A DNA stretch of 37,397 bases from Clostridia bacterium (GTDB lineage Bacteria; Bacillota; Clostridia; TANB77; CAG-508). Positions 6,328 to 30,462 of the stretch are shown piece by piece (position 1 is the first letter of the stretch; the number at the start of each line of letters is the position of its first letter). The translations under genes were made by a program, and so were the position numbers. The notes below the pieces were generated by a model. The model did not search any database and was not told the origin of the DNA. It worked only from the letters and a program-made list of their open reading frames with translations. Where the stretch lies: contig JAFXOY010000160.1 of NCBI GenBank assembly GCA_017528375.1, positions 1 to 37,397 on the forward strand, read 5' to 3'.

Positions 6328-6367
6328 TACCTTAACTAGTATTACACAAAAGAAAGGATTGATATAT

Positions 6368-7345
6368 ATGACTATAAACACAGAAGGTAATCCATCATTC
6401 TTAAATTCATTTTTAGATTATACTGCCACTATTTTAAACAAATCACCTAATACCATAAAAGAATATAACTATGACTTAAATAACTTCTTAAAATTCATTC
6501 TCGTACATTTTAAGATGACAGATAAGAAAGATTTAAAAGAAGTTGATATACATGATATGAGTATAACGACTATTGAGAAGATTAAACTAGAAGATATACA
6601 TGCATACTTATTCTATTTAAAAAACAATTTTCAAAGTAAAGCCGCTACTCGTGCTAGAAAAACAGCTAGTATACGTGTATTCTTTACATATCTATCTAGT
6701 AAAGCAGGTTTGATTGAAAAGAATCCTGCCCAAAACTTAGAAACTCCTAAACAAGATAAACGTGTTCCAAAATACTTATCATTAGATGATAGTAAAAAGC
6801 TTTTAGAAGCGGCTACTAATGTAGATGATCGTAATAAAGAACGTGATTATGCTATTCTTACTTTATTCTTAAATTGTGGTATGCGTTTATCTGAATTAGT
6901 AGGAATTAATATTAAAGATATTAACTTCAATGATTGTAAAATGAATGTTATAGGTAAAGGTAATAAAGAACGTACTATATACTTAAATAAAGCTTGTATA
7001 TCTGCTATTAACACATATTTAGCTGTTAGACCAAGAGATGGCGTAAAAAGCAATTCTCGTGATGCATTATTCCTAAGCGAACGTAAAGAACGCATTAGTA
7101 ATAGAACTGTTCAATATATAGTAAAACAAGAATTACGTCGTGCTGGTCTTGATACTAATAAATACTCTGTACATAAACTTAGACACACTGCTGCTACTTT
7201 AATGTATCAATATGGCAATGTAGATATACGAGCTTTGCAGGAATTATTAGGGCATGAAAGTATTTCTACTACCGAAATTTATACTCACGTTGCTAATGAA
7301 CAAGTTAGAAATGCTGTCGAAAGCAACCCTTTATCTGATTTTTAA
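6368..7345 (+). CDS. Tyrosine site-specific recombinase, XerC/XerD type
   Basis: 325 residues, the usual Xer length. An N-terminal SAM-like DNA-binding domain (about residues 8-125) is followed by the catalytic domain. All six catalytic residues are visible: R173 (GMRLSELVGI), K197 (GKGNKERTI), H269 and R272 (HKLRHTAATL), H296 (LGHESIS) and Y305 (TEIYTHV). It cuts and rejoins DNA through the tyrosine. Start: ATG 6368 is 9 bases after AAAGGA; the TTG at 6359 is too close. It could be a chromosome-dimer resolvase or a paralogue working on a nearby element; no clear dif-like site, integrase partner or att duplication is seen, so a mobile-element role is not supported. A repeat of the GGGGACGG family begins directly after its stop. 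Confidence 0.88.
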   Translation: MTINTEGNPSFLNSFLDYTATILNKSPNTIKEYNYDLNNFLKFILVHFKMTDKKDLKEVDIHDMSITTIEKIKLEDIHAYLFYLKNNFQSKAATRARKTASIRVFFTYLSSKAGLIEKNPAQNLETPKQDKRVPKYLSLDDSKKLLEAATNVDDRNKERDYAILTLFLNCGMRLSELVGINIKDINFNDCKMNVIGKGNKERTIYLNKACISAINTYLAVRPRDGVKSNSRDALFLSERKERISNRTVQYIVKQELRRAGLDTNKYSVHKLRHTAATLMYQYGNVDIRALQELLGHESISTTEIYTHVANEQVRNAVESNPLSDF

Positions 7346-10485: not shown

Positions 10486-11103
10486 TGGTCCCCAGTTTGT
10501 GGCTATATCAAGTTGATAGCTTAAAGGGTACGTCTGAGTTTCATCAGGATAATATGATTCTGGATCATATATCCGTTCATTACTGTTTTTAGGATCAGTA
10601 ACATATGATGGAACAACAATGTTTTCACCGGTTTCTTCGTCATAATATGTATACATATATATGAATCCACCTGTATCAACAACTATTCCTTTACCGAGAG
10701 AAGTATCAACTATTGTTCCCTTGGGACGAAACCGTAAGTCTGCTGCAATCATAATATAGTTGCCAAACATTTTACAGCCATCGTCACGTATCCAGTATGA
10801 ATAGTTATTGTACTTACCTTCAACATCATTAGCATGCATGATTTCAATTACAAAACTCATATCCATGTTATAAAATGTTTCCTTTCCAGAAGGCCCTTGA
10901 ATAGTTCCTTTAGAAGCGGTAAGCTTTTCTCCTGTCCATAAGGAAGTTGAAATAGATTCTGAAGTATTAGGAATTTTACTATTTTCTGCTGAAGCAGCAG
11001 AGTGGTCTTTAGCAATACAATATAAAGTACAAATTCCTAATATAAGAAAAATAACAAATAAAATATTGTTTTTTTCTTCGCTTGGACTGTTGCTTTTGCT
11101 CAT
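10477..11103 (-). CDS. Membrane-anchored or secreted protein with 3D-like domain
   Basis: 208 residues with an N-terminal membrane helix (about 13-31), a short Ser/Thr stretch in place of the Thr linker, and the same C-terminal domain as its neighbour: LTASKGTIQGPSGKETFYNM, YWIRDDGCKMFGNYIM, RPKGTIVDTSLGKGIVVDTGG. An insert of about 45 residues after the DTGG motif (TYYDEETGENIVV...ETQTYP) separates it from the shared ending YQLDIATNW. The two are paralogues from a duplication with later divergence. Probably acts on or in the cell wall. Start ATG 11103 has AGAGGTG. Expression is driven by a promoter nested in the ackA terminator. Confidence 0.65.
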   Translation of the reverse strand: MSKSNSPSEEKNNILFVIFLILGICTLYCIAKDHSAASAENSKIPNTSESISTSLWTGEKLTASKGTIQGPSGKETFYNMDMSFVIEIMHANDVEGKYNNYSYWIRDDGCKMFGNYIMIAADLRFRPKGTIVDTSLGKGIVVDTGGFIYMYTYYDEETGENIVVPSYVTDPKNSNERIYDPESYYPDETQTYPLSYQLDIATNWGPQR

Positions 11104-11236: not shown

Positions 11237-12427
11237 TTATTGTATCAATTTCATAGTTTCTCTAGCAATAACTAATTCTTCATTTGTTGGTATAACCCAA
11301 ACTTTAATTTTTGAATCAGGAGCTGAAATTTCAATTTCTTCTCCTCTTAATTGATTCTTTTCTTCATCTAATTTAACACCTAAAAATTCAAGGTTTTTAC
11401 AAATACCGCTTCTTCTGTTAAATTGATTTTCACCAACACCAGCTGTGAATACGATATTATCTACTCCACCCATAGAAACCATATATTTTGCTATGAATTG
11501 AGCTATATTTAAATCATAAGCTTTTAAGGCAAGTGCTGCTCTTTCACTACCATTATTCATTGCAGCTTCTATATCTCTAACATCAGGAGCTTCTCCAGAA
11601 ATTCCAGCAATACCAGATTCTTTGTTTAATATTCTATCCATTTCTTCAGGAGAAATGTTTTCTTTTTTCATTAAATATGTAACTATAGAAGGGTCTAAAT
11701 CACCGCTTCTAGCACACATCATAATTCCTCCAAGTGGTGTTAATCCCATACTAGTATCAACTGATTTACCACCTTGAACAGCACATAAACTAGCACCTTG
11801 TCCTAAGTGACATACGATAGTTTTTAATTCTTCTACTGGCTTATTTTCAAGTTCTGCAACTCTTTGTGATACATAGTAATGTGATGTACCATGGAAACCA
11901 TATTTACGTATTTTATATTCTCTATAATAATGATATGGAATAGGATATAAATATCTTTCTTCAGGAATTGTTTTATGGAATCCATTATCAAAAACAGTTA
12001 CATTAGGTTTATTTGGCATTAAGTTTCTACAAGCTTCAATACCCATAGCAGCAGCCATATTGTGAACTGGAGCTAAATCAGCAACTTCTCTAATTCCTGC
12101 TACAACACTATCATCTACTAAGATAGGATCAGCATATTTTTCTGCACCTTGAACAACTCTATGTCCAACAGCATTTATTTCATCTAAGCTATCTATTACT
12201 TTATATTCTGTTTCAGTTAATTGTTTAATGATAAATTCCAAAGCTTCTTTATGAGTAGGCGCTGGATTTTCCATTACATATTTTTCTCCATTTACTTTAT
12301 GTGTTATAAAAGCCTTAGGATCCCCTATTCTTTCATAATTTCCTTTTGCTAAAACGCTCTCATTTTCCATATTAATTAATTGGTATTTTAATGATGAGCT
12401 ACCACAGTTTAATACTAATATTTTCAT
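11237..12427 (-). CDS. ackA: Acetate kinase (copy 1)
   Basis: 396 residues, normal length. Makes ATP and acetate from acetyl phosphate in the cytoplasm. Motifs: ILVLNCGSSSLKYQLI at the N-terminus (kinase signature 1; most relatives, including the second copy, have NSGSSS), GFHGTSHYYVSQR (signature 2), CHLGQGAS, MGLTPLGGIMMCARSGDLDP and FTAGVGENQ. GIMMCARSG has Cys where GTRSG is usual (the second copy has MGTRSG). It follows the second ackA copy by 166 bases, separated by a family-1 GGGGACG repeat. Start ATG 12427 behind GGAGGT. About two-thirds identical in appearance to its neighbour, so an old tandem duplication. Confidence 0.95.
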   Translation of the reverse strand: MKILVLNCGSSSLKYQLINMENESVLAKGNYERIGDPKAFITHKVNGEKYVMENPAPTHKEALEFIIKQLTETEYKVIDSLDEINAVGHRVVQGAEKYADPILVDDSVVAGIREVADLAPVHNMAAAMGIEACRNLMPNKPNVTVFDNGFHKTIPEERYLYPIPYHYYREYKIRKYGFHGTSHYYVSQRVAELENKPVEELKTIVCHLGQGASLCAVQGGKSVDTSMGLTPLGGIMMCARSGDLDPSIVTYLMKKENISPEEMDRILNKESGIAGISGEAPDVRDIEAAMNNGSERAALALKAYDLNIAQFIAKYMVSMGGVDNIVFTAGVGENQFNRRSGICKNLEFLGVKLDEEKNQLRGEEIEISAPDSKIKVWVIPTNEELVIARETMKLIQ

Positions 12428-12440
12428 TTATTTTACCTCC

Positions 12441-12494
12441 TGCACAATTGGGGACGCGTCCCTGCTGTGTAAAATGCACAGCAGGGGACAGGTC
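12441..12494 (+). repeat. Dispersed GGGGACGCGTCCC repeat, family 1, copy D
   Basis: One arm of the element: TGCACAATTGGGGACGCGTC, then CCTGCTGTG, TGCACAGCAGGGGACAGGTC. It contains two dyads (GGGACGCGTCCC and TGTG-TAAAA-TGCACA). A double, inverted version lies at 37234-37350. It sits between the two ackA genes. Confidence 0.8.
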
Positions 12495-12525
12495 AGCTTC
12501 AATTGCTTTAATTTTTTCTATATAT

Positions 12526-12554
12526 TTATAACATACAAACAACTAATTTTGCAA
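12526..12554 (-). promoter_or_regulatory. Possible promoter for ackA copy 1
   Basis: Minus strand: TTGCAA, 17 bases, TTATAA. Weak match, about 100 bases before the ATG; the copy could also be read from the pta promoter. Confidence 0.3.
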
Positions 12555-12593
12555 CTATTTTTACGTATATTCTGATAACTACTCTCAAGAATC

Positions 12594-13787
12594 TTAAGCC
12601 ATTTTGCTCTTTACATCTCTTGCAATTAATAATTCCTCATTAGTAGGAATTACAAACATCTCTATAGACGAATCAGAAGCGGAAATTTTTCCTTCTGAAT
12701 TAACAAAAGTATTATTTGCTTCTTCATCTAATTTAACGCCTAAAAATGTCAAATAATCACAAATTCTTTGTCTTTCTTTAGCATCTTTCTCACCAATTCC
12801 AGCTGTGAAAGTTATAATATCTACGCCACCCATAGAAACCATATATTTTGCAATAAATTGTGCAACATTGTATGAGAAAGAATCTAATGCAAGCACCGCA
12901 TTATGATTTCCTTCTGATGCCTCTGCTTCAATGTCTCTAAAATCTACTGACACTTCAGATATTCCATATACACCTGATTTTTTATTTAATATCTCATCCA
13001 TTTCATCAGGAGTATGATTTCTTGTTTTAGCTATATATGTTGCAACAGATGGATCAATATCTCCACTTCTAGTTCCCATAGGAATTCCACCTAAAGGAGT
13101 GAATCCCATACTAGTATCTACTGATTTTCCATTCTTGATAGCGCATATACTAGCACCTTGGCCTAAATGGCAGTTAATTATTTTTAAGTCTTCTAATGGT
13201 CTTCCTACTAATTCTGCTGCTCTATTAGCTACAAATTGATGTGAAATTCCATGGAATCCATATCTACGTATTTTATATTTCTCATAATATTTATAAGGAA
13301 TAGGATAAATATAGCTTTCTGGTGGGATTGTTTTATGGAATCCTGTATCAAAACATGCTACATTAAGCTTACCAGGCATAACGCTTAAACATGCTTCCAT
13401 TCCTGAAATAGCGGCTGGATTATGTAGTGGTGCTAAATCTATTATAGATTTTAACCCATCTAGAACTTCAGGTGTAATAACAACTGGATCTGTATATTTT
13501 TCTCCTCCATGAACAACTCTATGACCTATAGCATCAATTTCATCAATTGATTTAATAACACCATATTCATCACTTAACAATCTTGCTAAAACAAATTTTA
13601 TTGCTTTTTCATGATTTGAAACTGGTCTTTCAAACTTATGTTTTTCATTTCCAACTTTATGTGTTAAAAATGAATTACTTTGACCAATTCTTTCAAAATT
13701 TCCTTTTGCTAAAACTTCTTCTGTTTCCATTTCAATTAATTGATATTTTAGTGATGAACTACCACTGTTTAATACTAATATTTTCAT
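12594..13787 (-). CDS. ackA: Acetate kinase (copy 2, pta-proximal)
   Basis: 397 residues. All acetate kinase motifs are present in usual form: ILVLNSGSSSLKYQLIEM, GFHGISHQFVANR, CHLGQGASICAIKNGK, MGFTPLGGIPMGTRSGDIDP, FTAGIGEKD. It is the copy next to pta and closest to consensus at MGTRSGD, so it is the likelier housekeeping enzyme for acetate formation from acetyl-CoA. Start: ATG 13787 lies 9 bases after AAAGGA; the TTG at 13796 is too close to that site. The 96-base gap from pta holds a family-2 repeat. pta, this gene and copy 1 probably form one transcription unit. Confidence 0.95.
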   Translation of the reverse strand: MKILVLNSGSSSLKYQLIEMETEEVLAKGNFERIGQSNSFLTHKVGNEKHKFERPVSNHEKAIKFVLARLLSDEYGVIKSIDEIDAIGHRVVHGGEKYTDPVVITPEVLDGLKSIIDLAPLHNPAAISGMEACLSVMPGKLNVACFDTGFHKTIPPESYIYPIPYKYYEKYKIRRYGFHGISHQFVANRAAELVGRPLEDLKIINCHLGQGASICAIKNGKSVDTSMGFTPLGGIPMGTRSGDIDPSVATYIAKTRNHTPDEMDEILNKKSGVYGISEVSVDFRDIEAEASEGNHNAVLALDSFSYNVAQFIAKYMVSMGGVDIITFTAGIGEKDAKERQRICDYLTFLGVKLDEEANNTFVNSEGKISASDSSIEMFVIPTNEELLIARDVKSKMA

Positions 13788-13810
13788 ATTCTTCAATCCT
13801 TTCTTACATC

Positions 13811-13880
13811 AAAGACCGTCCCTTAATGTGTCATTTTTGACCCAAAATGAGTCCGTCCCCAAATGTGTCAAATGTGTCAA
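13811..13880 (-). repeat. Dispersed GGGACGG repeat, family 2, copy B
   Basis: On the minus strand: GACACATTTGACACATTTGG then GGACGGACTCATTTTGGGTC and GACACATTAAGGGACGGTC. Nearly identical to copy A with one extra GACACATTT unit. Fills the pta-ackA gap. Confidence 0.85.
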
Positions 13881-13883
13881 ATT

Positions 13884-14876
13884 TTATTGTGCTTGAACAG
13901 CAGTAATTGCAATAACGCCTGCTATATCTTCTGCTGAGCAACCTCTTGATAGGTCGTTAACTGGTTTAGCTATACCTTGGCATAGTGGTCCATATGCTTC
14001 TGCTTTTGCTAAACGTTGTACTAATTTATATCCTATATTTCCTGCATCTAAATCAGGGAATATTAATGTATTTGCTTTTCCTTGTACTGGGCTTCCTGGA
14101 GCTTTAGAAGCGGCTATTTCTGGAATAATTGCTGCATCTAATTGTAATTCTCCATCACATATTAAATCTGGAGCTTTTTGTTTTAATAATTTTGTAGCTT
14201 CGACTACTTTATCTGTTAATGGTGAGTGTGCACTTCCATATGTAGAATATGATAGCATTGCTACTTTAGGTTGAGCTCCTACTAATTGTTTAAAACTATT
14301 TGCTGATGAAATTGCTATTTCTGATAATGCATCTGCATCCGGATATTCATTTAACCCACTATCAGAGAATATAAATATTCCATTTTCACCATATTCGCAA
14401 TCTGGAACTACCATTACAAAGAATGCTGATACTAATTTTGTTCCAGGTGCTGTTTTTAATATTTGAAGAGCTGGTCTTAATGTATCTGATGTAGAGTGAC
14501 ATGCTCCTGATACTAAGCCATCTGCGTCACCATTTTTTACCATCATCATACCAAAGTATGTTTCATCTTTTAATGTTTCTCTGGCTTTTTCAATTGTCAT
14601 TCCTTTCGCTTTTCTTAATTCATAGAACAGTTGAACATATGTTTCGTATTTCTCACTTTCTATAGGATTGATTATTGTTGCTTGTGATATATCTAAATTA
14701 TTTGCACTTGCCATTTCTTGTATTTTAGCTGTATCTCCTAATATAATTAGATTTGCATATTTCTCACTTAGTGCAATAGAAGCGGCTTTTATAGTACGTA
14801 TATCACTTCCTTCAGGCAAAACTATTGTTTTTATTTCTTGTTTTGCCTTGTCTTTTATTGTTTCAATAAATGACAT
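13884..14876 (-). CDS. pta: Phosphate acetyltransferase
   Basis: 330 residues, the short clostridial/bacillary form without the N-terminal P-loop extension. Converts acetyl-CoA and phosphate to acetyl phosphate. Motifs: TIVLPEGSDIRTIKAA, MMMVKNGDADGLVSGACHST, FIFSDSGLNEYPDADALSEI, MLSYSTYGSAHSP and the C-terminal FPDLDAGNIGYKLVQRLAKA. Start ATG 14876 behind AAGGAGG. First gene of the pta-ackA-ackA unit with its own promoter. Two AGAAGCGG sites fall in its sequence, using rare GCC-GCT-TCT codon runs. Confidence 0.96.
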   Translation of the reverse strand: MSFIETIKDKAKQEIKTIVLPEGSDIRTIKAASIALSEKYANLIILGDTAKIQEMASANNLDISQATIINPIESEKYETYVQLFYELRKAKGMTIEKARETLKDETYFGMMMVKNGDADGLVSGACHSTSDTLRPALQILKTAPGTKLVSAFFVMVVPDCEYGENGIFIFSDSGLNEYPDADALSEIAISSANSFKQLVGAQPKVAMLSYSTYGSAHSPLTDKVVEATKLLKQKAPDLICDGELQLDAAIIPEIAASKAPGSPVQGKANTLIFPDLDAGNIGYKLVQRLAKAEAYGPLCQGIAKPVNDLSRGCSAEDIAGVIAITAVQAQ

Positions 14877-15077: not shown

Positions 15078-15752
15078 TTATTTTACAATTATCCCTAATA
15101 ATTTTGATAATTCCATAGCTTGATATTCATCAACTATAATCCCCTTTAAATCTTGTGGCATTACAACTATTCCTGTTATATCGCATGTAGAAAAATCTAT
15201 TCCATTTAGGTCAGTTTTATATAATTGAATTCCAATTAAGTTTGAATATTGAAATTCTACCTTCTTTAATAAGGCTTCTTGTATACTTGCATTTGATAAT
15301 TTGCTATTTAAGAATGTTGTTGTTTGTAAATTAGTTAAAGCAAAATTTGCATAGGATGCATTACAATTATCAAAGTATGCGTTTTGCATGTATGTATGTG
15401 TAAAATTACATCCAACGACTTTACAGTTTCTAAATGTAACTCTTATAAAATTACAATCACTAAAGTCTGTATTTGAAAAATCACAGTTTTCAAATGTTAC
15501 ATCTACAAATGTTATTTTATTGAATTTTGCATTTAAACATATAGAGTCTGAAAATTCACATGTATTGAATTCAAAGTTGTTTGTGTCTATGTGTGCTTCA
15601 TAACATCCTTTAAATCTTAGTCCTTTTATGTCTGTCATATTCATTTTAGCTTGGTTAATTATTTTTGCCAAGCTATTACATTCTGTTAAACTGTGTGTAT
15701 CTATTGCATATCTAGCATAAGGATTAATTCCATAATCTTCCAAATTATCCAT
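15078..15752 (-). CDS. Pentapeptide-repeat protein
   Basis: 224 residues. From about residue 45 to 190 the chain follows the A(D/N)LXX pentapeptide pattern with aromatic centre residues (FENCDFSNTDFSDCNFIRVTF, NLQTTTFLNSKLSNASI), which folds as a right-handed quadrilateral beta-helix. The tail DITGIVVMPQDLKGIIVDEYQAMELSKLLGI resembles the C-terminal part of MfpA/Qnr-like proteins that mimic DNA and bind gyrase; whether this one does is unknown. No signal peptide, so cytoplasmic. It stands alone between two terminators. Unusually Cys-rich at repeat positions (CNF, CEF, CDF, CNA). Confidence 0.85.
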   Translation of the reverse strand: MDNLEDYGINPYARYAIDTHSLTECNSLAKIINQAKMNMTDIKGLRFKGCYEAHIDTNNFEFNTCEFSDSICLNAKFNKITFVDVTFENCDFSNTDFSDCNFIRVTFRNCKVVGCNFTHTYMQNAYFDNCNASYANFALTNLQTTTFLNSKLSNASIQEALLKKVEFQYSNLIGIQLYKTDLNGIDFSTCDITGIVVMPQDLKGIIVDEYQAMELSKLLGIIVK

Positions 15753-19009: not shown

Positions 19010-19160
19010 CTATAATTACCCTTTCTATACAATACAGAGGTTTACGTAACATCTTACTTTCATTTATAGATAATCCTTACCTCAATTTGTAGTTTATTAT
19101 AACATAGTTTCTTAATTTTGAATAGTGCTTTCTTTACATAATTTTTTCATAACCTCCGGC

Positions 19161-19259
19161 GCGTCAACTTGTTATGTCTATTGCTTTTCTTCTTTCTTTT
19201 TTTGAAGTTTACATATTCTAGAAATAATCTTCGTGGCGTCAACCTTTTATGTTGATTGC
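19161..19259. repeat. Direct repeat upstream of the small HTH gene
   Basis: GCGTCAACTTGTTATGTCTA+TTGC (19161-19184) and GCGTCAACCTTTTATGTTGA+TTGC (19236-19259) agree at 20 of 24 positions and are 75 bases apart, about seven helical turns. The second contains the dyad TCAAC/GTTGA. They lie in the 348-base gap between uvrA and the HTH gene and could be regulator sites. Nothing else is seen in this gap except promoters. Confidence 0.5.
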
Positions 19260-19272
19260 ACTTCCCCTCCTA

Positions 19273-19301
19273 TTGATTTTTTCACATTTTTGATGTATAA
19301 T
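19273..19301 (+). promoter_or_regulatory. Promoter of the small HTH gene
   Basis: TTGATT, 17 bases, TATAAT, followed 43 bases later by GGAGGT and the ATG. Confidence 0.75.
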
Positions 19302-19357
19302 AATAAGTAATTATAATGTATTTATAATTACTATTTCATCAATGGAGGTATACTACA

Positions 19358-19639
19358 ATGACTGAAGGAGAAGTATTAAAATTATTTCGGTATGCAAACG
19401 GATATGATAATCTTGATCAGCTTGCCGAAGCATGCGGCATAAGCAAAAGAAGTTTATCTGAGCAAAATGGAACTTATTTATCAAACAGGATACTACGCCT
19501 TCTGGCAAATGCTTTTGATATATCAGTTCAGGCTTTATGTATCTCATTTAGATTTCTTCAGGATTATGACTACAACAACAAAGAAGAACGTAAAAAAGCT
19601 TTGATGTATGTCTTATCTTTAAGCTGCAACAAGAAATAA
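19358..19639 (+). CDS. Small helix-turn-helix (Xre-like) regulator
   Basis: 93 residues. The segment NLDQLAEACGISKRSLSEQNGTY followed by NRILRLLANAFDISVQAL fits the five-helix lambda-repressor/Xre fold, with recognition helix around SKRSLSE. The C-terminal 35 residues are Tyr/Lys-rich with no known effector domain. Own promoter, SD GGAGGT and terminator. Codons such as GCC, TGC, GGC and CAG are commoner than in neighbours, like the glycosyltransferase and dockerin genes, suggesting transfer. Targets are unknown; the direct repeats just upstream are candidates for autoregulation. Confidence 0.6.
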   Translation: MTEGEVLKLFRYANGYDNLDQLAEACGISKRSLSEQNGTYLSNRILRLLANAFDISVQALCISFRFLQDYDYNNKEERKKALMYVLSLSCNKK

Positions 19640-19667
19640 TCTTAAGATTTCAAGTATCTCCAGCAAC

Positions 19668-19697
19668 AAAAAAGCAGAAGTAATACTTCTGCTTTTT
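19668..19697. terminator. Bidirectional terminator between the HTH gene and the HTH-array operon
   Basis: AAAAGCAGAAG pairs with CTTCTGCTTTT around TAATA; flanked by A and T runs on both sides. It serves the convergent genes ending at 19639 and 19709. Confidence 0.85.
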
Positions 19698-19708
19698 ATT
19701 TTTATAAA

Positions 19709-20584
19709 TTATCTATCTCTCTCGTTATCAATGTCTATCTTAATTTTATACATTTTAGAAACTTCTTCAATAAATATCTCTAATTGCTGCTTATTAGCTT
19801 TTCTTTTTTTAGCAATATCATATACCATATTTATTAAGTTTTCCTGTTTTACAATCTTTCTTTTATAATTTAAACTACCTTTTCGTACGCTTGGTATACT
19901 TTCCCCTTTTTTAGCATATATCCTATTACATCTAATTGCAACTGTTTTTGGACAAACATTGATATTACGTGTTTTAAGATACTCTGTAATTTCCATGTAT
20001 GTCATACCTCGTTTTTTTGCTTCATAAAGCTCTTCTTCAGGAATATATTTATATATATTTCTACCTACTACAAAATCTCTATCTTCTTTATGATTATCCC
20101 TTTTTTCTTTGGCTTTCAACTTAGAAATAACTTCTTTTTCGTTTTGATTTTTTTCTTTAAAAACTTCTCCACAAATCTTTCTAATTGATTCGTGTGATAT
20201 ATAAAGTTTAAACTCTTTCTCTAATTCTTTTGATATTGTTCTATATGATAATCCATCACATCTCATATTGTAAATAACAGTTTCAATGAAACCCTCTTTT
20301 GATAATTCTTCTTGTTTATTCTTTTCTTCTTTTTTACTTAATTTTTCTTGCCTTTGAACTTTTAACTCTTTGACTAAATCCTTATATTCCTGTTTAACAA
20401 TAGGATGTGGTCTCTTTTTTATCTTATTCCCATTTTCATCTTTATAATTACTTAAGTATTCATAAAACTCTTCTATACTAATTTCATCTTCTAAACCAGA
20501 TAATTGATAAACCTCAAATGGAGTAATTCTTGTATTCATAAATAAATCTATTGCTAATTTTAGTTTATTATCAATATTAAACAT
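19709..20584 (-). CDS. HTH-repeat protein, short paralogue
   Basis: 291 residues, no known family recognised. Layout: an N-terminal region (1-60: IDLFMNTRITPFEVYQLSGL ... SIEEFYEYLSNY) that matches the N-terminus of the upstream gene; a Lys/Glu linker; an HTH-like unit (about 98-150: IYNMRCDGLSYRTISKELEK ... SIRKICGEVFKEKN); a second unit (about 185-236: LYEAKKRGMTYMEITEYLK ... TVAIRCNRIYAKKGESIPS); and a C-terminal helix pair (DIAKKRKANKQQLEIFIEEVSKMY) shared with the upstream gene. The units look like sigma-factor-region-4 or recombinase-type HTHs (xxGxSYxxIxxEL). It starts 5 bases after the upstream stop with its SD overlapping that stop, so the two are translationally coupled. Probable DNA-binding partner pair. 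Confidence 0.6.
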   Translation of the reverse strand: MFNIDNKLKLAIDLFMNTRITPFEVYQLSGLEDEISIEEFYEYLSNYKDENGNKIKKRPHPIVKQEYKDLVKELKVQRQEKLSKKEEKNKQEELSKEGFIETVIYNMRCDGLSYRTISKELEKEFKLYISHESIRKICGEVFKEKNQNEKEVISKLKAKEKRDNHKEDRDFVVGRNIYKYIPEEELYEAKKRGMTYMEITEYLKTRNINVCPKTVAIRCNRIYAKKGESIPSVRKGSLNYKRKIVKQENLINMVYDIAKKRKANKQQLEIFIEEVSKMYKIKIDIDNERDR

Positions 20585-20589
20585 ATTTA

Positions 20590-22029
20590 CTACCTCTCTT
20601 TTTCATTATAATCTATATTTACTTTAAGATCAGTATTATACATTTTAGAAACTTCTTTTATAAATCTATCTAATTGTTCTTTGTTAGCTTTTTTCTTTTT
20701 CGCAATTTTATATGCAGCATCTATTATTTGTTTATTATCTACGTTAGTTTTCACTACACGTTTTGAATTTTTTCTAAATATACTTTTAGGAACTTCTTCA
20801 TTTTTTATTTTAAAAATTCTATTAGTTTTATGTATAACATTTGCTCGACTAATTGTAATTCCCTTTTTATCTAAAAACTCTATAATTCTACTATCACTAT
20901 ATCTATTTAATCTTAAATTATAAATCATCTTGTCAATAGGTTCTATTTTTACTCTTCTTCCCCTATTAAATTTATATTTCATATCATTAATTTCTTTACA
21001 TCTATATGCTACTGTATAAGGTTTTACATTAATTCCTTGCTTGTTTAGTTCATCGGCTATTTGTTTATATGTTAGACCTTGTTTTCTTAATTCGTAAATA
21101 GTTTTACTTATTTGATTTTTATTAGTATCATATACTGGTGATTTCTTAGGCACACTTTCATTCTTACTTTTAAATATTTTTTTACAATACCCTCTTATAG
21201 CTTCCATACTTAAATTTTTATCATATTTAGAGTTAATTTCATCTTTAATTTGTTTATATGTTAGTCCTTGTTTTCTTAATTCATATACATCAGAATAATA
21301 TGGATTATTTTTATCTAGTTCTTCATTTCTATTAATAGGTGGAGGAATTTTCTCGTTTTTACTATTAAAAATTCTTTTACAATGCTTTCTTACAGATTCA
21401 CGAGATGTTTCAATACCTATTTCATATAATTCATTAACTATATTTCTATAAGATTTACCATCTTTCTTAGAGCTATATATATAATCAAATATATAATTAT
21501 TTAAAACTTCATATATACCATACTTATCTTCTTCATAATATTTTTCTGGTTTATTTATATCAACACCATATTTTTTAAAATACTCTTTTATATCTTCATC
21601 ATTCATGCCTTTATTTTTTAAATAATCTATTGTACTATCTTTAACAATAACTATCATTTTATATGAATCGTTATTCTTAGTATCAGGTTCTATCATTCCT
21701 CTTTCTTTAAATACTCTTTCACATATTTTCTTAACTCTTTCTGTTGAAAGTGTAATACCCGAGTCCTTTAAATAACCTGCAATTCTATAATATGCTTTTC
21801 CCTGCAATCTTAGTTCAAATATTATATCCTTAACATTTTGCCCTATTTTTTTAGTACTTCTAATTAATACTTCTCCTGTCTCTTCTTCATATTGCTCTAA
21901 AAAGGCATATAATTCTTCGATAGTCATATCATATTCTTTATTAACCATTTTCAACACCGATGAAATTGGATAATTAGCATCAGTAAAATTTTCTAATATA
22001 ATTCTTTTAACATTTTCTGGTATATTCAT
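20590..22029 (-). CDS. HTH-repeat protein with about five to six tandem units
   Basis: 479 residues. After an N-terminal domain (1-60), units of about 60 residues recur at roughly 64-115, (degenerate 122-173), 174-234, 242-301, 302-361 and 362-425. Each has a helix, a turn with GxxYxxI, a second helix and a closing CKxIFxxKNExVP box. Clear examples are YELRKQGLTYKQIADELNKQ and YELRKQGLTYKQIKDEINSK. The C-terminal AKKKKANKEQLDRFIKEVSK is shared with the downstream paralogue and may be an oligomerisation or partner motif. The whole is basic, without signal or membrane segments. Inference: a DNA- (or RNA-) binding array reading a long site. No nuclease or enzyme motif is visible. Own promoter at 22069-22097. 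Confidence 0.6.
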   Translation of the reverse strand: MNIPENVKRIILENFTDANYPISSVLKMVNKEYDMTIEELYAFLEQYEEETGEVLIRSTKKIGQNVKDIIFELRLQGKAYYRIAGYLKDSGITLSTERVKKICERVFKERGMIEPDTKNNDSYKMIVIVKDSTIDYLKNKGMNDEDIKEYFKKYGVDINKPEKYYEEDKYGIYEVLNNYIFDYIYSSKKDGKSYRNIVNELYEIGIETSRESVRKHCKRIFNSKNEKIPPPINRNEELDKNNPYYSDVYELRKQGLTYKQIKDEINSKYDKNLSMEAIRGYCKKIFKSKNESVPKKSPVYDTNKNQISKTIYELRKQGLTYKQIADELNKQGINVKPYTVAYRCKEINDMKYKFNRGRRVKIEPIDKMIYNLRLNRYSDSRIIEFLDKKGITISRANVIHKTNRIFKIKNEEVPKSIFRKNSKRVVKTNVDNKQIIDAAYKIAKKKKANKEQLDRFIKEVSKMYNTDLKVNIDYNEKER

Positions 22030-22068
22030 AAATAATTACCTCAATCCCTTAAAAAATTATCATACTTA

Positions 22069-22097
22069 ATTATACCATTTTTTAGTAAAAAAATCAA
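22069..22097 (-). promoter_or_regulatory. Promoter of the HTH-array operon, overlapping uvrB terminator T-tract
   Basis: Minus strand: TTGATT (22097-22092), 17 bases, TATAAT (22074-22069). The -35 forms part of the T-run of the uvrB terminator. Confidence 0.75.
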
Positions 22098-22140
22098 CCT
22101 TTATGTTAACCCGGTTTCTATACCTAAAACATAAAGGTTG
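22091..22140 (-). terminator. Terminator of uvrB
   Basis: Stem CAACCTTTATGTT / AACATAAAGGTTG (13 bp) with a 20-base loop, then ATTTTTTTA on the minus strand. Confidence 0.75.
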
Positions 22141-22149
22141 GTTTTATAA

Positions 22150-27181: not shown

Positions 27182-28892
27182 TTATTTTTCTACCTTAACA
27201 ACAATATTTGAAAGAGTTCCTTTGAATAATCTTATAGGTGTTCCGTTTCTTAATGCAGCTCCTATTGTTAATGGTACATTATGATAGTTTGTAAAATTAG
27301 TAAAATCATATACTTCTTTTTTTTGTCCATTATTGATAGATAGATACATCTTTTTGTCAATCCTTGATATTCTAACGGTTTGAATATTTTCCTTTTTAGT
27401 ACTATTTCCGTTTCCGCTTCCACCTTTTGCGTCAAACCTAATACTTCCATCTGTATATATTCTATAAACGAATCCTGGATATGAAGGAGCATTTCCCTCA
27501 TCTTTTCCATTTACTAATACTATTTGATTTTCTGAAAGTGGTTCAATTGAATCAATTGCAAATGAAACTTCAAAATCCTTATCAATATTTTCTGCAGTAA
27601 ATAAATTCAAACCTGTATTAATATAATTTTCACCATTAAATATGTATTGTCCAGGATATTCATATACAATTTTAAGCTGTTTAATTTCATCTTCTATATC
27701 AGCACCTTCGTCAAGAAATTTAACTACCATATTTGACAAGGTTCCTTTAAAATATCTAAATGGATTTCCATTTCTATCCATACTTGCACCAAATGTAACT
27801 GGCACGTTAAAGGTTCTTTCAGAATTTGTAGTATAATTGTTTATCTTAGTAAACCTGCCTCCATCTAGACTATAGTATAAAACATCATCTATTCTTATAA
27901 TTCTTATATTTTTTACATTGTCCGGTATACTAAAATCACCCGCAGAATTACTTGCACTATTTGATTCAAATCTAACAGTTTTATTGCTACCGCTTACATA
28001 ATATTTTACAACGCAGCCTGGCCAAGGAGCTCCTGATTCATTCATTGAATTCATTAATGCATTGTGGTGAACATTGCTTTCATCTACATCTTCTATATCA
28101 AATGAAATAAGAAAATTCCTATGTATGTTTTCTTCAGAGAACAAATATATACCTGTATTAATATAATTGTCTCCTGTAAAAGTAACCCCATCTTTATTGA
28201 TAAAACATTCTCCTGGTATATTGCCATCTGGAATTTCTAATATCTCAAAGCCGGTTACATCTATAAAAGCTGTTACCGTTTTTCCTAAGTCTTCTGTATC
28301 TATCAAATCAGCATCGCTTATTTCTTCTCCAGGTGTTGATTCATACTCCCATTTCCAATAAATTGTTTCATCAAATTCCCTATGGGAATCCTTATCTACA
28401 TACCTTGTTATATGTATTGAGGCAATCTTAGGATCACCATCGTTGCCAGTACCATTTCTTATAGTTTCTATTTTCTGAGTTTTCTGGCTATCTGAATAGA
28501 AATTTAAATTTGTTGGACAATTTTCAATATTTATACTTAAATCATATTGTAAATGCACTTGCGTACCTGTAGTATCCACTTTTATAGCAATTTTGCCAAA
28601 GGTTCCAGGTGCAATAGTTCCGGTTTCTACTGTTCCGATTGGTATCTGTTCTAGTTATTGCAAAATTAATATTGTCTACACTTTGCTCACCATTACCTGT
28701 TACTTTAAAGCTCCATTTTGCAACTTCTACAGTCTCATTTTGCTGTATTCTAGAATTATATCTAGCCCATGCAACAACGCTAATAGAAGCTAGAATTAAT
28801 ATTATAATTATTAAAAAAGCAATTAAAAAATTAATACTATTTGATTTTGCTTTTGTTTTTGTTTTTTCTTTACTTTTATCTTTATTTTTCAT
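27182..28892 (-). pseudogene. Camelysin/TasA-like anchored surface protein with LamG-type domains, frameshifted
   Basis: Two frames form one gene. The first (ATG 28892, behind AGGAG, MKNKDKSKEKTKTKAKS) has a membrane helix FLIAFLIIIILILASISVVA and ARYNSRIQQNETVEVAKWSF; the second takes up IPIGTVETGTIAPGTFGKIA, IKVDTTGTQVHLQYDLSINI, which is the conserved middle of camelysin/TasA-type proteins (IAPGTxGxFxIxVD). The switch needs a +1 shift near 28650. The rest holds two homologous concanavalin/LamG-like domains (about 190 residues each, beginning GDNYINTGIYLF and GENYINTGLNLF, each ending FKGTLSN(M/I)VVK). Full length about 570 residues. The second half alone would lack its export helix. Own promoter. 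Confidence 0.65.
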
Positions 28893-28929
28893 TTTTGTCT
28901 CCTGTATCTTCCAATATTTCTTTTTAAAA

Positions 28930-28958
28930 ATTATATCATACAATAATTATCTTAACAA
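28930..28958 (-). promoter_or_regulatory. Promoter of the camelysin-LamG gene
   Basis: Minus strand: TTGTTA, 17 bases, TATAAT, about 32 bases before the ATG. Confidence 0.6.
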
Positions 28959-29042: not shown

Positions 29043-30401
29043 TTACCTTACTCTTATCATATCCTGGAACAATACATATAACTCTTTGTATTTTCCGTCC
29101 ACTTTGTTTGTGATAATCTTTGCCCAGCCATCATCATAAACAAATACAATTCCGAGTAAGTCACCAAACTCAAGTTTTCCTACAATATTACTGTCGTCTT
29201 CTAAGAACTTTGCAGTTCTGACGTCACCAGTATCCGTAATGAAATAACATGATCCTAATGTACCAGCTGGCTGGAATAAATAGTCATTTGCCGGCTCAAT
29301 AAGGATGTATTTGCCTGTCTCGGTTGCATTAACTGTTGCTATCTCATACCAGTAATTTCCTACTTCCTTCTTTATAAAGAAGATGTCTCCATTACTAAGA
29401 TGATCAATAGCATTGTCTCCGAGCTCTGGTGTAGCACGAACATTCCACCATTCACCATTGAACTGAACACAGTTCCAAGTCGAATACTTTGTTGTATTCG
29501 GATCAACTGGGAAGAAACCTGTACCTATCGGTGCAGTAACTGTTACAGTTGCTGTGGTTGTGGTTTCAGTAATAGTTGTTGTAGTTGTGCTTGTTAACGA
29601 CATTGTTGTTGACTTTGAAGTCGTTGTAGTTGTAGTAGGCTTCTTTGTCGTTGTTGTAGTTGCATTCGTCGTAGTTGTAGTAGGCTTCTTTGTCGTTGTT
29701 GTGGTCGCAGTCGTCGTGGTTGTTGTAGGCTTCTTTGTCGTTGTTGTAGTTGCAGTCGTTGTGGTTGTTGTAGGCTTCTTTGTCGTTGTTGTGGTTGTCG
29801 TGGTCGTCGTTGTAACAAATTCAACCTTTCCGATCTTCTCGAAATAATTCATAGAATCAGAAGAAACGAGTATGTAAACTTCAGTGTCAATATTATTTAA
29901 GTAAATACCATACCAATTGTTTTCATACTTTCCTGCTATAACAAAAACTTCAGAATTTTCTATATAGTTTTTATTAGGATACAGGTTATCTGCTAAAAGA
30001 TCCTTCGTACTATGAACAAACCATGATGTTCCAGTAAATCTGATTAAATCATTTACCTCGAATTGCTTTGGTGCAGGTTTGTCTACAACAATTATTTCAT
30101 AATCAACGTGCTTTCCAGTGGCCTCAGCAGCATACATGGCGAGAATTGTACTTGCGTCAACTGCATTAATAGATCCGTCATGATTAACATCTGCTGCAAT
30201 TTCAATAATGTCTGCATCTGCTCCTGTGCTAATTTTTGCATAATAGCTTAAAACCATTGATGCATCAACAGCATTTACAGCGCCATCCCGGTTTACATCC
30301 CCAACATGCCATTCTGCGTCTGTTGCAAAGGCACAAAGGGTGTTTATGCATGTAAGTACTACAAGCATAGCTGTTGTTAAGATTGACATGATTTTTTTCA
30401 T
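29043..30401 (-). CDS. Secreted dockerin protein with SH3-like domains and Thr-Lys-Pro linker
   Basis: 452 residues from ATG 30401, 9 bases after GAGGAGG (ATG 30419 overlaps that site). Order: signal peptide (MKKIMSILTTAMLVVLTCIN...AFA); an N-terminal type I dockerin with two Ca-binding repeats (GDVNRDGAVNAVDASMVLSY and ADVNHDGSINAVDASTILAM); an SH3b-like domain (DLIRFTGTSWFVHSTKDL); a linker of KKPTTTTTTATTTTT repeats coded by a 45-bp minisatellite; then two more SH3b-like parts (WNCVQFNGEWWNVRATPEL; GSCYFITDTGDVRTAKFL). Dockerins bind cohesins on scaffoldins of cellulosomes or surface complexes; no cohesin is in the window. The SH3 domains probably bind the cell wall. G+C-richer codon use and Thr linkers resemble Ruminococcus, so transfer is likely. 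Confidence 0.85.
   Translation of the reverse strand: MKKIMSILTTAMLVVLTCINTLCAFATDAEWHVGDVNRDGAVNAVDASMVLSYYAKISTGADADIIEIAADVNHDGSINAVDASTILAMYAAEATGKHVDYEIIVVDKPAPKQFEVNDLIRFTGTSWFVHSTKDLLADNLYPNKNYIENSEVFVIAGKYENNWYGIYLNNIDTEVYILVSSDSMNYFEKIGKVEFVTTTTTTTTTTTKKPTTTTTTATTTTTKKPTTTTTTATTTTTKKPTTTTTNATTTTTKKPTTTTTTSKSTTMSLTSTTTTTITETTTTATVTVTAPIGTGFFPVDPNTTKYSTWNCVQFNGEWWNVRATPELGDNAIDHLSNGDIFFIKKEVGNYWYEIATVNATETGKYILIEPANDYLFQPAGTLGSCYFITDTGDVRTAKFLEDDSNIVGKLEFGDLLGIVFVYDDGWAKIITNKVDGKYKELYVLFQDMIRVR
29638..29817. repeat. 45-bp coding minisatellite (four copies)
   Basis: GGCTTCTTTGTCGTTGTTGT recurs at 29638, 29683, 29728 and 29773, exactly 45 bases apart, coding 15-residue units KKPTTTTTTATTTTT on the minus strand. 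Copy number is likely variable between strains. Confidence 0.9.
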
Positions 30402-30462
30402 AAAAATGTTCCTCCTCATAGATGAATTTTACAGCTTTTCATTATGATAAAAAATCTATTTT

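Follow-up and report, generated by a model that had tools for sequence, protein, structure and literature searches.

Helix-turn-helix (HTH) domains are a very common DNA-binding fold of bacteria, and most proteins that carry them act as dimers on short palindromic sites. There are few modular DNA readers; zinc fingers and TALEs are examples. Judged by the main text of a 2024 survey, the nearest described family to the proteins reported here, in host and behaviour, is pTERF, tandem-repeat DNA-binding proteins of 3–11 units from metagenome-assembled genomes (MAGs), mostly of Bacillota (Hu et al. 2024, PMC11417379). pTERF1, from a ruminant-gut Clostridia MAG, binds ACTNNNAGTC, a second member binds another motif, and the repeat groups of the survey have periods of 15–35 residues (Nucleic Acids Research, NAR, 2024 survey, PMC11417379). 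We analysed a 37,397-nt stretch of a Clostridia bacterium genome (contig JAFXOY010000160.1; this whole stretch is called the window below), in which two neighbouring genes between uvrB and uvrA (both named by NCBIfam) encode a 479-aa protein (P0001) and a 291-aa partner (P0002) built of tandem HTH-type units. From sequence comparison we judge it fairly likely that the pair are modular DNA-binding proteins that read long composite sites by several recognition helices.

Repeat units and their fold

The two minus-strand open reading frames (ORFs) were confirmed, and units were located with an iterated hidden Markov model (HMM) of a 49-residue core. P0001 contains five three-helix units and one truncated unit (domain E 4.5e-10 to 5e-20) and P0002 contains two (E 1.8e-17 and 4.2e-21); these E-values refer to a set of 7 proteins that also supplied the training units and are therefore optimistic. 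The counts agree with the roughly five to six and two units of an earlier reading made from the letters alone (the sequence-only reading). Units start 64, 50, 64, 63 and 58 aa apart in P0001 and 82 aa apart in P0002. In total the HMM found 76 units in 18 of 19 proteins. The ‘closing CKxIFxxKNExVP box’ that had been proposed for each unit turned out not to be a separate element, being the last part of the recognition helix (helix 3); the stretch is altered in the units at residues 70–115 and 366–414 and is absent after CKEI in that at 309–351. Over helices 1 and 2, units 3 and 4 are 85% identical in DNA along 54 nt, and their helices 3 differ.

Pfam gave only partial matches on the units, mostly of HTH type; HTH_38 and the HTH of Tc3 transposase were among the further unit matches. 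A 390-aa protein of the same genus (L069:680–1852; in such codes G stands for a genome and L for a DNA stretch, and L069, L082, L106 and others hold array genes of relatives) is recognised by Pfam as an HTH array (HTH_23 3.1e-19, HTH_38 4e-19, HTH_7 7.4e-15) and bears the C-terminal domain of the family, with 45% identity over 51 aa to a 481-aa protein of the same genome. An ordinary-HTH profile was made of six units of L069 and two of L066, and hhalign aligned the unit profile to it with a probability of 97.9 (E 3.6e-13, 38 columns), helices 1, 2 and 3 being in register and five additional residues lying in the turn. By sequence profile, the unit has the three-helix core and the helix 2–helix 3 pattern of the HTH superfamily and is predicted to be a three-helix HTH with a turn lengthened by five residues. 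The HTH character proposed in the sequence-only reading is thus upheld by the profile–profile match and the Pfam-recognised sister array, and no strong match to a characterised family turned up. Profile matches in the PDB to designed helical repeats and to topoisomerase V, in which no stretch passed by itself, were not read as homology.

P0001 and P0002 are alike (BLASTP 2e-16). Of the terminal domains that the pair had been thought to have in common, the C-terminal one stands (59% identity over 44 aa), and the N-termini are weakly alike (25% over residues 7–77, E 0.0065). No Pfam match better than 0.01 was found for the C-terminal domain in any of 7 members. In four couples of array proteins its identity was 59, 53, 71 and 51%, against a mean unit identity of 34, 28, 63 and 35%, a difference that a shared module for oligomerisation could explain, as could a plain slower rate of change.

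Neither protein has a complete enzyme domain in Pfam, PHROGs, NCBIfam or PADLOC, as had been supposed, all matches being short or below cut-off. Pfam Recombinase passes its cut-off, yet with at most 31 of 102 positions; an NCBIfam IS21 transposase model reached 24 bits (cut-off 160), and a PHROG named ‘RNase E’ matched over 24 residues.

The number of units differs between paralogues, as was proposed before, and also between orthologues. The orthologues between ftsZ and spoIIGA have five units in G128 and three in G045, two of the latter being ordinary short-turn HTHs; the C-termini of these proteins are homologous (29% identity over 171 aa, E 9e-15). In G862 (L106) the units of a 687-aa and a 583-aa paralogue are co-linear (pairs 208–28, 265–85, 350–170 and 548–418); the larger protein has three extra units in front, and the middle parts of the two differ. 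Within a tree of 68 units, 18 had their nearest unit in their own gene; shuffling the labels gave 3.9, and none of 5000 shuffles reached 18. By this count the arrays are renewed in part by internal duplication, and most units look old.

Change at predicted base contacts and what the arrays may do

As base contacts we took unit positions 29, 30, 31, 34, 35 and 38, assumed by setting Ile33 to position 15 of the classical HTH numbering; the set was chosen after the raw per-position counts had been seen, and the choice was thus not blind. The proportions of nonsynonymous (pN) and synonymous (pS) differences were compared in 31 within-gene unit pairs at least 55% identical, from 5 genes of relatives and none of the window; 19 of the pairs came from two G399 genes (10 and 9). 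At the contact positions pN was 0.397 and pS 0.213 (ratio 1.86), and elsewhere 0.126 and 0.267 (0.47). Residue differences at the contact positions exceeded those of random sets (permutation p 0.004 for all positions and 0.022 for surface positions), and among 33 slid position sets the contact set had the highest pN. With disjoint pairs (8–9), the median contact ratio was 1.63 and the median p of contact positions versus the rest was 0.002. Four co-linear paralogous pairs of G862, outside the first test, had 16 of 24 contact residues changed versus 56 of 149 others (p 0.007), with a pN/pS of 1.23 at contact positions versus 0.53 elsewhere. The quartet 30/31/34/35 takes 68 forms in 70 units, and the seven units of the window that have a helix 3 carry seven different quartets. 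The pN/pS values suggest positive selection at the contact positions. In the relatives the variable residues are concentrated at predicted DNA-facing positions, as in modular sequence-reading tandem-repeat proteins. The earlier idea that the array reads a long site gains weight from this fast change in relatives; binding itself we infer.

Several observations weigh against sequence reading by the pair. One other slid set (−15) has a higher ratio, 2.41, with a low pS. In the disjoint pairs the excess of pN over pS at contact positions was not significant (median p 0.06), and relaxed constraint could for this reason also account for the change. Fast change is also seen at positions 15 and 18 of helix 2 and at position 39. 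Other quartets are as diverse (26/27/30/31, 66 of 68; 31/32/35/36, 68 of 70), so that quartet diversity alone is not special. The units of the window are too diverged for the pN/pS test (best pair 51%), the fold is predicted from sequence profiles, and by eye the array loci examined have no common neighbour gene hinting at a function.

If the pair does read DNA, the array would lay several recognition helices along it, each with its own base-contact residues, and the whole protein would read one long composite site. The array would lengthen or shorten by duplication and loss of units, and with contact residues changing faster than the scaffold new specificities could arise quickly. Within pairs, C-termini are better kept than units, and the C-terminal domain probably links the two proteins as homo- or heteromers. 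Since an enzyme domain is absent, the proteins would most likely act by occupying DNA and so repress or silence target genes or invading DNA. These proteins are most likely sequence-specific multi-HTH DNA binders, and probably regulators or silencers; the fast change from unit to unit at the predicted contacts in relatives suggests a mode of reading long DNA sites not yet described in bacteria.

It seems unlikely to us that the multi-HTH proteins coat DNA in a nucleoid or structural role with little preference for sequence, their contact residues drifting as unneeded. This would agree with the missing significance in disjoint pairs, the considerable variation at other positions, the tolerance of a variable unit number and the lysine-rich look of the proteins (by eye), but the contact positions change more than others, also when compared with surface positions only, and the sporadic presence described below would be odd for a nucleoid protein. 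A good deal less probable is a role as RNA-binding repeat proteins that regulate transcripts, similar to PPR, mTERF or FASTK proteins or to the cores of uS15 and bL20. PPR proteins likewise read RNA by modular repeats with variable residues, and PDB profile matches to bL20 and uS15 chains were found (E 0.003 to 0.08); these are weak, the HTH domain of RpoN matched slightly better (E 0.0018), and the closest relatives of the units are the DNA-binding HTHs given above (HTH_38, Tc3, HTH_23, the resolvase HTH_7 and the hhalign match).

Distribution and genomic settings

Array genes, with 2–8 units, were present in nine sampled genomes (G000, G007, G013, G045, G052, G128, G291, G399 and G862) of four genera in one Clostridia family. 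A search with P0001 matched 4 of 96 relatives, its own genome counted. With the unit profiles, 11 of 16 genomes of the genus matched at E 0.01, whole units occurring in G000, G007 and G013 only and isolated partial matches (best 4.5e-6) in the remaining eight. The family sample gave 9 matches in 292 genomes at 1e-6, two of which (G308 and G164) were single partial matches, the order sample 6 in 385, the class sample 2 in 391 (both of the same family) and the phylum sample 1 in 398, its own genome. Four of 194 genomes matched in the genus of G399 (arrays in 2), two of four in that of G128 and three of 17, one weakly, in that of G052; isolated partial matches were also seen in G355, G894 and G176. 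The samples overlap, the larger ones were drawn from bigger groups and in large scans only part of the candidates were scored at first look, so that these counts leave absence elsewhere unproven.

G399 is ‘uncultured Clostridia bacterium isolate Lapin-027__bin53’ (CANRCM010000011.1), and ‘Lapin’ in this name suggests rabbit. The G007 copy at C2:86128 is intact, L016:7057–7974 being an open frame and the stops falling in an over-extended alignment. The true starts of a 374-aa (L081) and a 305-aa (L016) relative are probably later than listed, as promoter-like strings overlap the listed starts.

The genes lie in various settings. In G007 an array pair is on the opposite side of uvrB; others are beside a magnesium P-type ATPase gene, between ftsZ and spoIIGA and, by eye, beside a cysteine-desulfurase-like gene and next to clpX-clpP-like genes. 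The window, G007 and G399 each have two adjacent array genes, and a 7-kb cluster in G862 comprises two large arrays together with three small relatives. The two genomes with the most similar UvrB, G011 and G005 (95% identity), have no array ORF in the uvrB–uvrA gap, which there holds a protein like that of window positions 29043–30419 (37–38% over 194–242 aa); for this reason the pair is an accessory insertion in a conserved backbone. The uvrA–uvrB interval (19010–22149) is variable cargo, with other genes again in G015 and G009. A small gene convergent with the pair (19358–19639, plus strand; weak HTH_3 match) has a 47% relative at the same place in G005 and, since G005 lacks arrays, is not linked to them.

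That the arrays are part of a phage or plasmid was rejected, as neither P0001 nor a 353-aa relative (L082) had a tblastn match in phage or plasmid records; five scans of IMG/VR viral contigs, which reach close relatives only, found no array relative. Least probable of the alternatives is that the pair serve a mobile element or site-specific recombination as DNA-binding accessory proteins: although there are a partial PF07508 Recombinase match (38.1 bits), a CcrB-like serine recombinase gene (194.7 bits, below cut-off) about 1.9 kb from the L018 array gene, a Xer-type tyrosine recombinase (6359–7345) 12 kb off in the window, and a sporadic presence at varied loci, neither protein has a recombinase or transposase catalytic domain, by eye no such gene lies beside most array loci examined, the phage, plasmid and IMG/VR searches were empty within their reach, and orthologues keep one locus, ftsZ–spoIIGA.

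A promoter-like string (TTGCAA, then ACATAATATATGATA and AAT) lies upstream of several array genes. Across 22 genomes its four zero-mismatch matches were at array genes of G399 and G862, the pattern's own source; matches with 1–3 mismatches also occurred away from arrays and in genomes in which no arrays were found. For this reason the string was rejected as a common operator and is read as a lineage promoter type. Two array-gene promoter regions of G862 (L106:6228–6259 and 11004–11035) have a palindrome in common, TTTACATAATAT-8-ATATTATGTAAA at one and a version with 9-nt arms at the other, possibly an autoregulatory site.

The coordinates of the pair and its parts are given in Table 1. Stop (20590–20592) and start (ATG, 20582–20584) of the two genes are 5 bp apart, and the first gene's final two codons, for Glu and Arg, supply the GAGAGG that resembles a Shine-Dalgarno sequence for the second; the translational coupling named in the sequence-only reading is inferred from this arrangement. 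The promoter-like site upstream of the pair is one of 12 with 10 of 12 matches among the 31 listed, and the only one with a TG. As 31 sites in 3.3 kb are not clearly more than in shuffles (24.9, standard deviation 4.6), the argument for this site is its place. The inverted repeat behind uvrB, not listed by the hairpin scanner, which has a loop limit of 8, is likely the uvrB terminator, and the stem of the hairpin behind the pair could be usable on both strands. From these three features the pair may form a separate transcription unit, which the scans by themselves do not prove.

Table 1. Positions in the window of the array gene pair, its units and domains, and nearby signals
Feature	Coordinates	Strand	Basis or remark
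479-aa tandem-HTH array protein P0001	20590..22029	-	ORF; five three-helix units, one truncated
N-terminal domain of P0001, residues 1-60	21850..22029	-	weakly common to partner and some relatives
Unit 1, residues 70-115	21685..21822	-	unit HMM
Truncated unit without helix 3, residues 131-160	21550..21639	-	unit HMM, E 4.5e-10, profile positions 1-30 only
Unit 2, residues 183-229	21343..21483	-	unit HMM
Unit 3, residues 247-294	21148..21291	-	unit HMM
Unit 4, residues 309-351	20977..21105	-	unit HMM; ends at profile position 44 of 49
Unit 5, residues 366-414	20788..20934	-	unit HMM
C-terminal domain of P0001, residues 429-479, ends -KER	20593..20745	-	C-terminus of partner, relatives
291-aa partner P0002, two units	19709..20584	-	ORF; BLASTP to P0001; unit HMM
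Partner unit 1, residues 103-149	20138..20278	-	unit HMM
Partner unit 2, residues 183-231	19892..20038	-	unit HMM
Partner C-terminal domain, residues 246-291, ends -RDR	19712..19849	-	likeness to P0001 C-terminus
Promoter-like TTGATT-17-TATAAT upstream of pair	22069..22097	-	10 of 12 matches; TG precedes -10
Inverted repeat then T-rich tract, 3' of uvrB	22090..22145	-	own reading
Terminator-like hairpin after pair	19669..19697	+ as listed	only one found; shuffles 0.5 (standard deviation 0.8)

The G + C content of the two genes (0.235 and 0.252) is below that of uvrB and uvrA (0.318). Foreign origin by composition was nevertheless rejected, as at third codon positions the pair (0.119 and 0.164) is like five of the six other genes measured (0.12–0.18; one surface-type gene has 0.32). 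The ending -ER or -DR was found in 10 of 18 family proteins (ORF set) versus 3 of the 170 other ORFs taken from these 18 sources; the count leaves out the truncated G291 gene, and L067 and L068 served in the ORF control and promoter-string scan only. Two of the three non-family ORFs are close to array genes in G007 (L015:12394–15135 and L070:4581–5372). In the pair the ending is encoded at 20593–20598 and 19712–19717, and the codons of the first gene double as the ribosome-binding site of the next; the ending is present in single array genes too.

Elsewhere on the minus strand, 11237–14876 contains an acetate/propionate kinase family gene (11237–12427) and a phosphotransacetylase gene (13884–14876; both NCBIfam), with a second acetate-kinase-like gene (by eye) in between. 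A pentapeptide-repeat protein (15078–15752; Qnr-family match of 66.5 bits, below the cut-off of 240) has relatives 80 and 83% identical in G011 and G005. Two overlapping frames at 27182–28943 seemingly form one surface protein (by eye), the larger part of which has a 444-aa relative (64.6%) in G005; a frame break or assembly error is possible. The plus-strand Xer-type recombinase (XerC 242.5 bits, below the cut-off of 335) has relatives near uvrA in G015 and G009 (79–80% identity).

Comparison with known systems

No tandem-HTH array family in bacteria was described in the open-licence literature searched. With pTERF the arrays have in common a three-helix repeat unit and an origin in Clostridia or Bacillota MAGs; according to the survey, the role of pTERF in its host is not known (PMC11417379). 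They are set apart by description, with HTH units spaced 50–64 aa (82 aa in the partner). As the survey's groups have shorter periods, HTH arrays lie outside it, and ‘HTH’ and ‘helix-turn-helix’ are absent from its main text.

TALE and TALE-like proteins (BurrH, MOrTL, STAR) resemble the arrays in having units that are alike, few variable DNA-facing residues and a varying number of units. Their repeats are of about 34 aa (33–35) with a repeat-variable di-residue, whereas the arrays have 49-aa HTH cores with linkers and a spacing of at least 50 aa. R2R3-MYB proteins are eukaryotic tandem three-helix HTH modules of about 50 aa that read a composite site and have conserved Trp residues. Arrays and Myb/SANT proteins are alike in their tandem modules of similar size, but the unit consensus has no Trp and only 1 of 33 units touches the Myb model (E 0.0049). 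PF07508 Recombinase, DUF7626 and DUF6471 have a short G-x-[ST]-Y-x-x-I helix-turn stretch in common with the units. The whole-protein scores of P0001 exceed these Pfam cut-offs by summed partial matches, whereas the best stretches cover 27–31 residues of profiles 55–102 long; for PF07508 the best stretch is positions 3–33 of 102 and no serine recombinase catalytic domain is listed.

C2H2 zinc-finger arrays (KRAB-ZFP, PRDM9) consist of tandem DNA-reading modules that are gained and lost and whose contact residues change fast. The HTH arrays have all of this in common with them: tandem modules, gain and loss, and fast change at the predicted DNA contacts. They differ in being bacterial and of HTH type, with no effector domain found and no Cys2His2 motif (C-x2-4-C...H-x3-5-H) in either sequence as read, a zinc-finger model being unlisted. 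A bolder idea, which we put forward tentatively and hold to be rather doubtful, is that the arrays are a bacterial counterpart of KRAB zinc fingers, lineage-restricted, reading long DNA sites with a per-unit code at 30/31/34/35, evolving by unit shuffling under diversifying selection, and silencing a changing set of targets such as invading or selfish DNA. If this were true, arrays would be re-programmable unit by unit. An array with unit-specific contact residues would be a natural experiment for an HTH recognition code, such a code being difficult to derive from proteins most of which are dimers on short palindromes, and it raises the question of what drives such fast change of specificity in small genomes.

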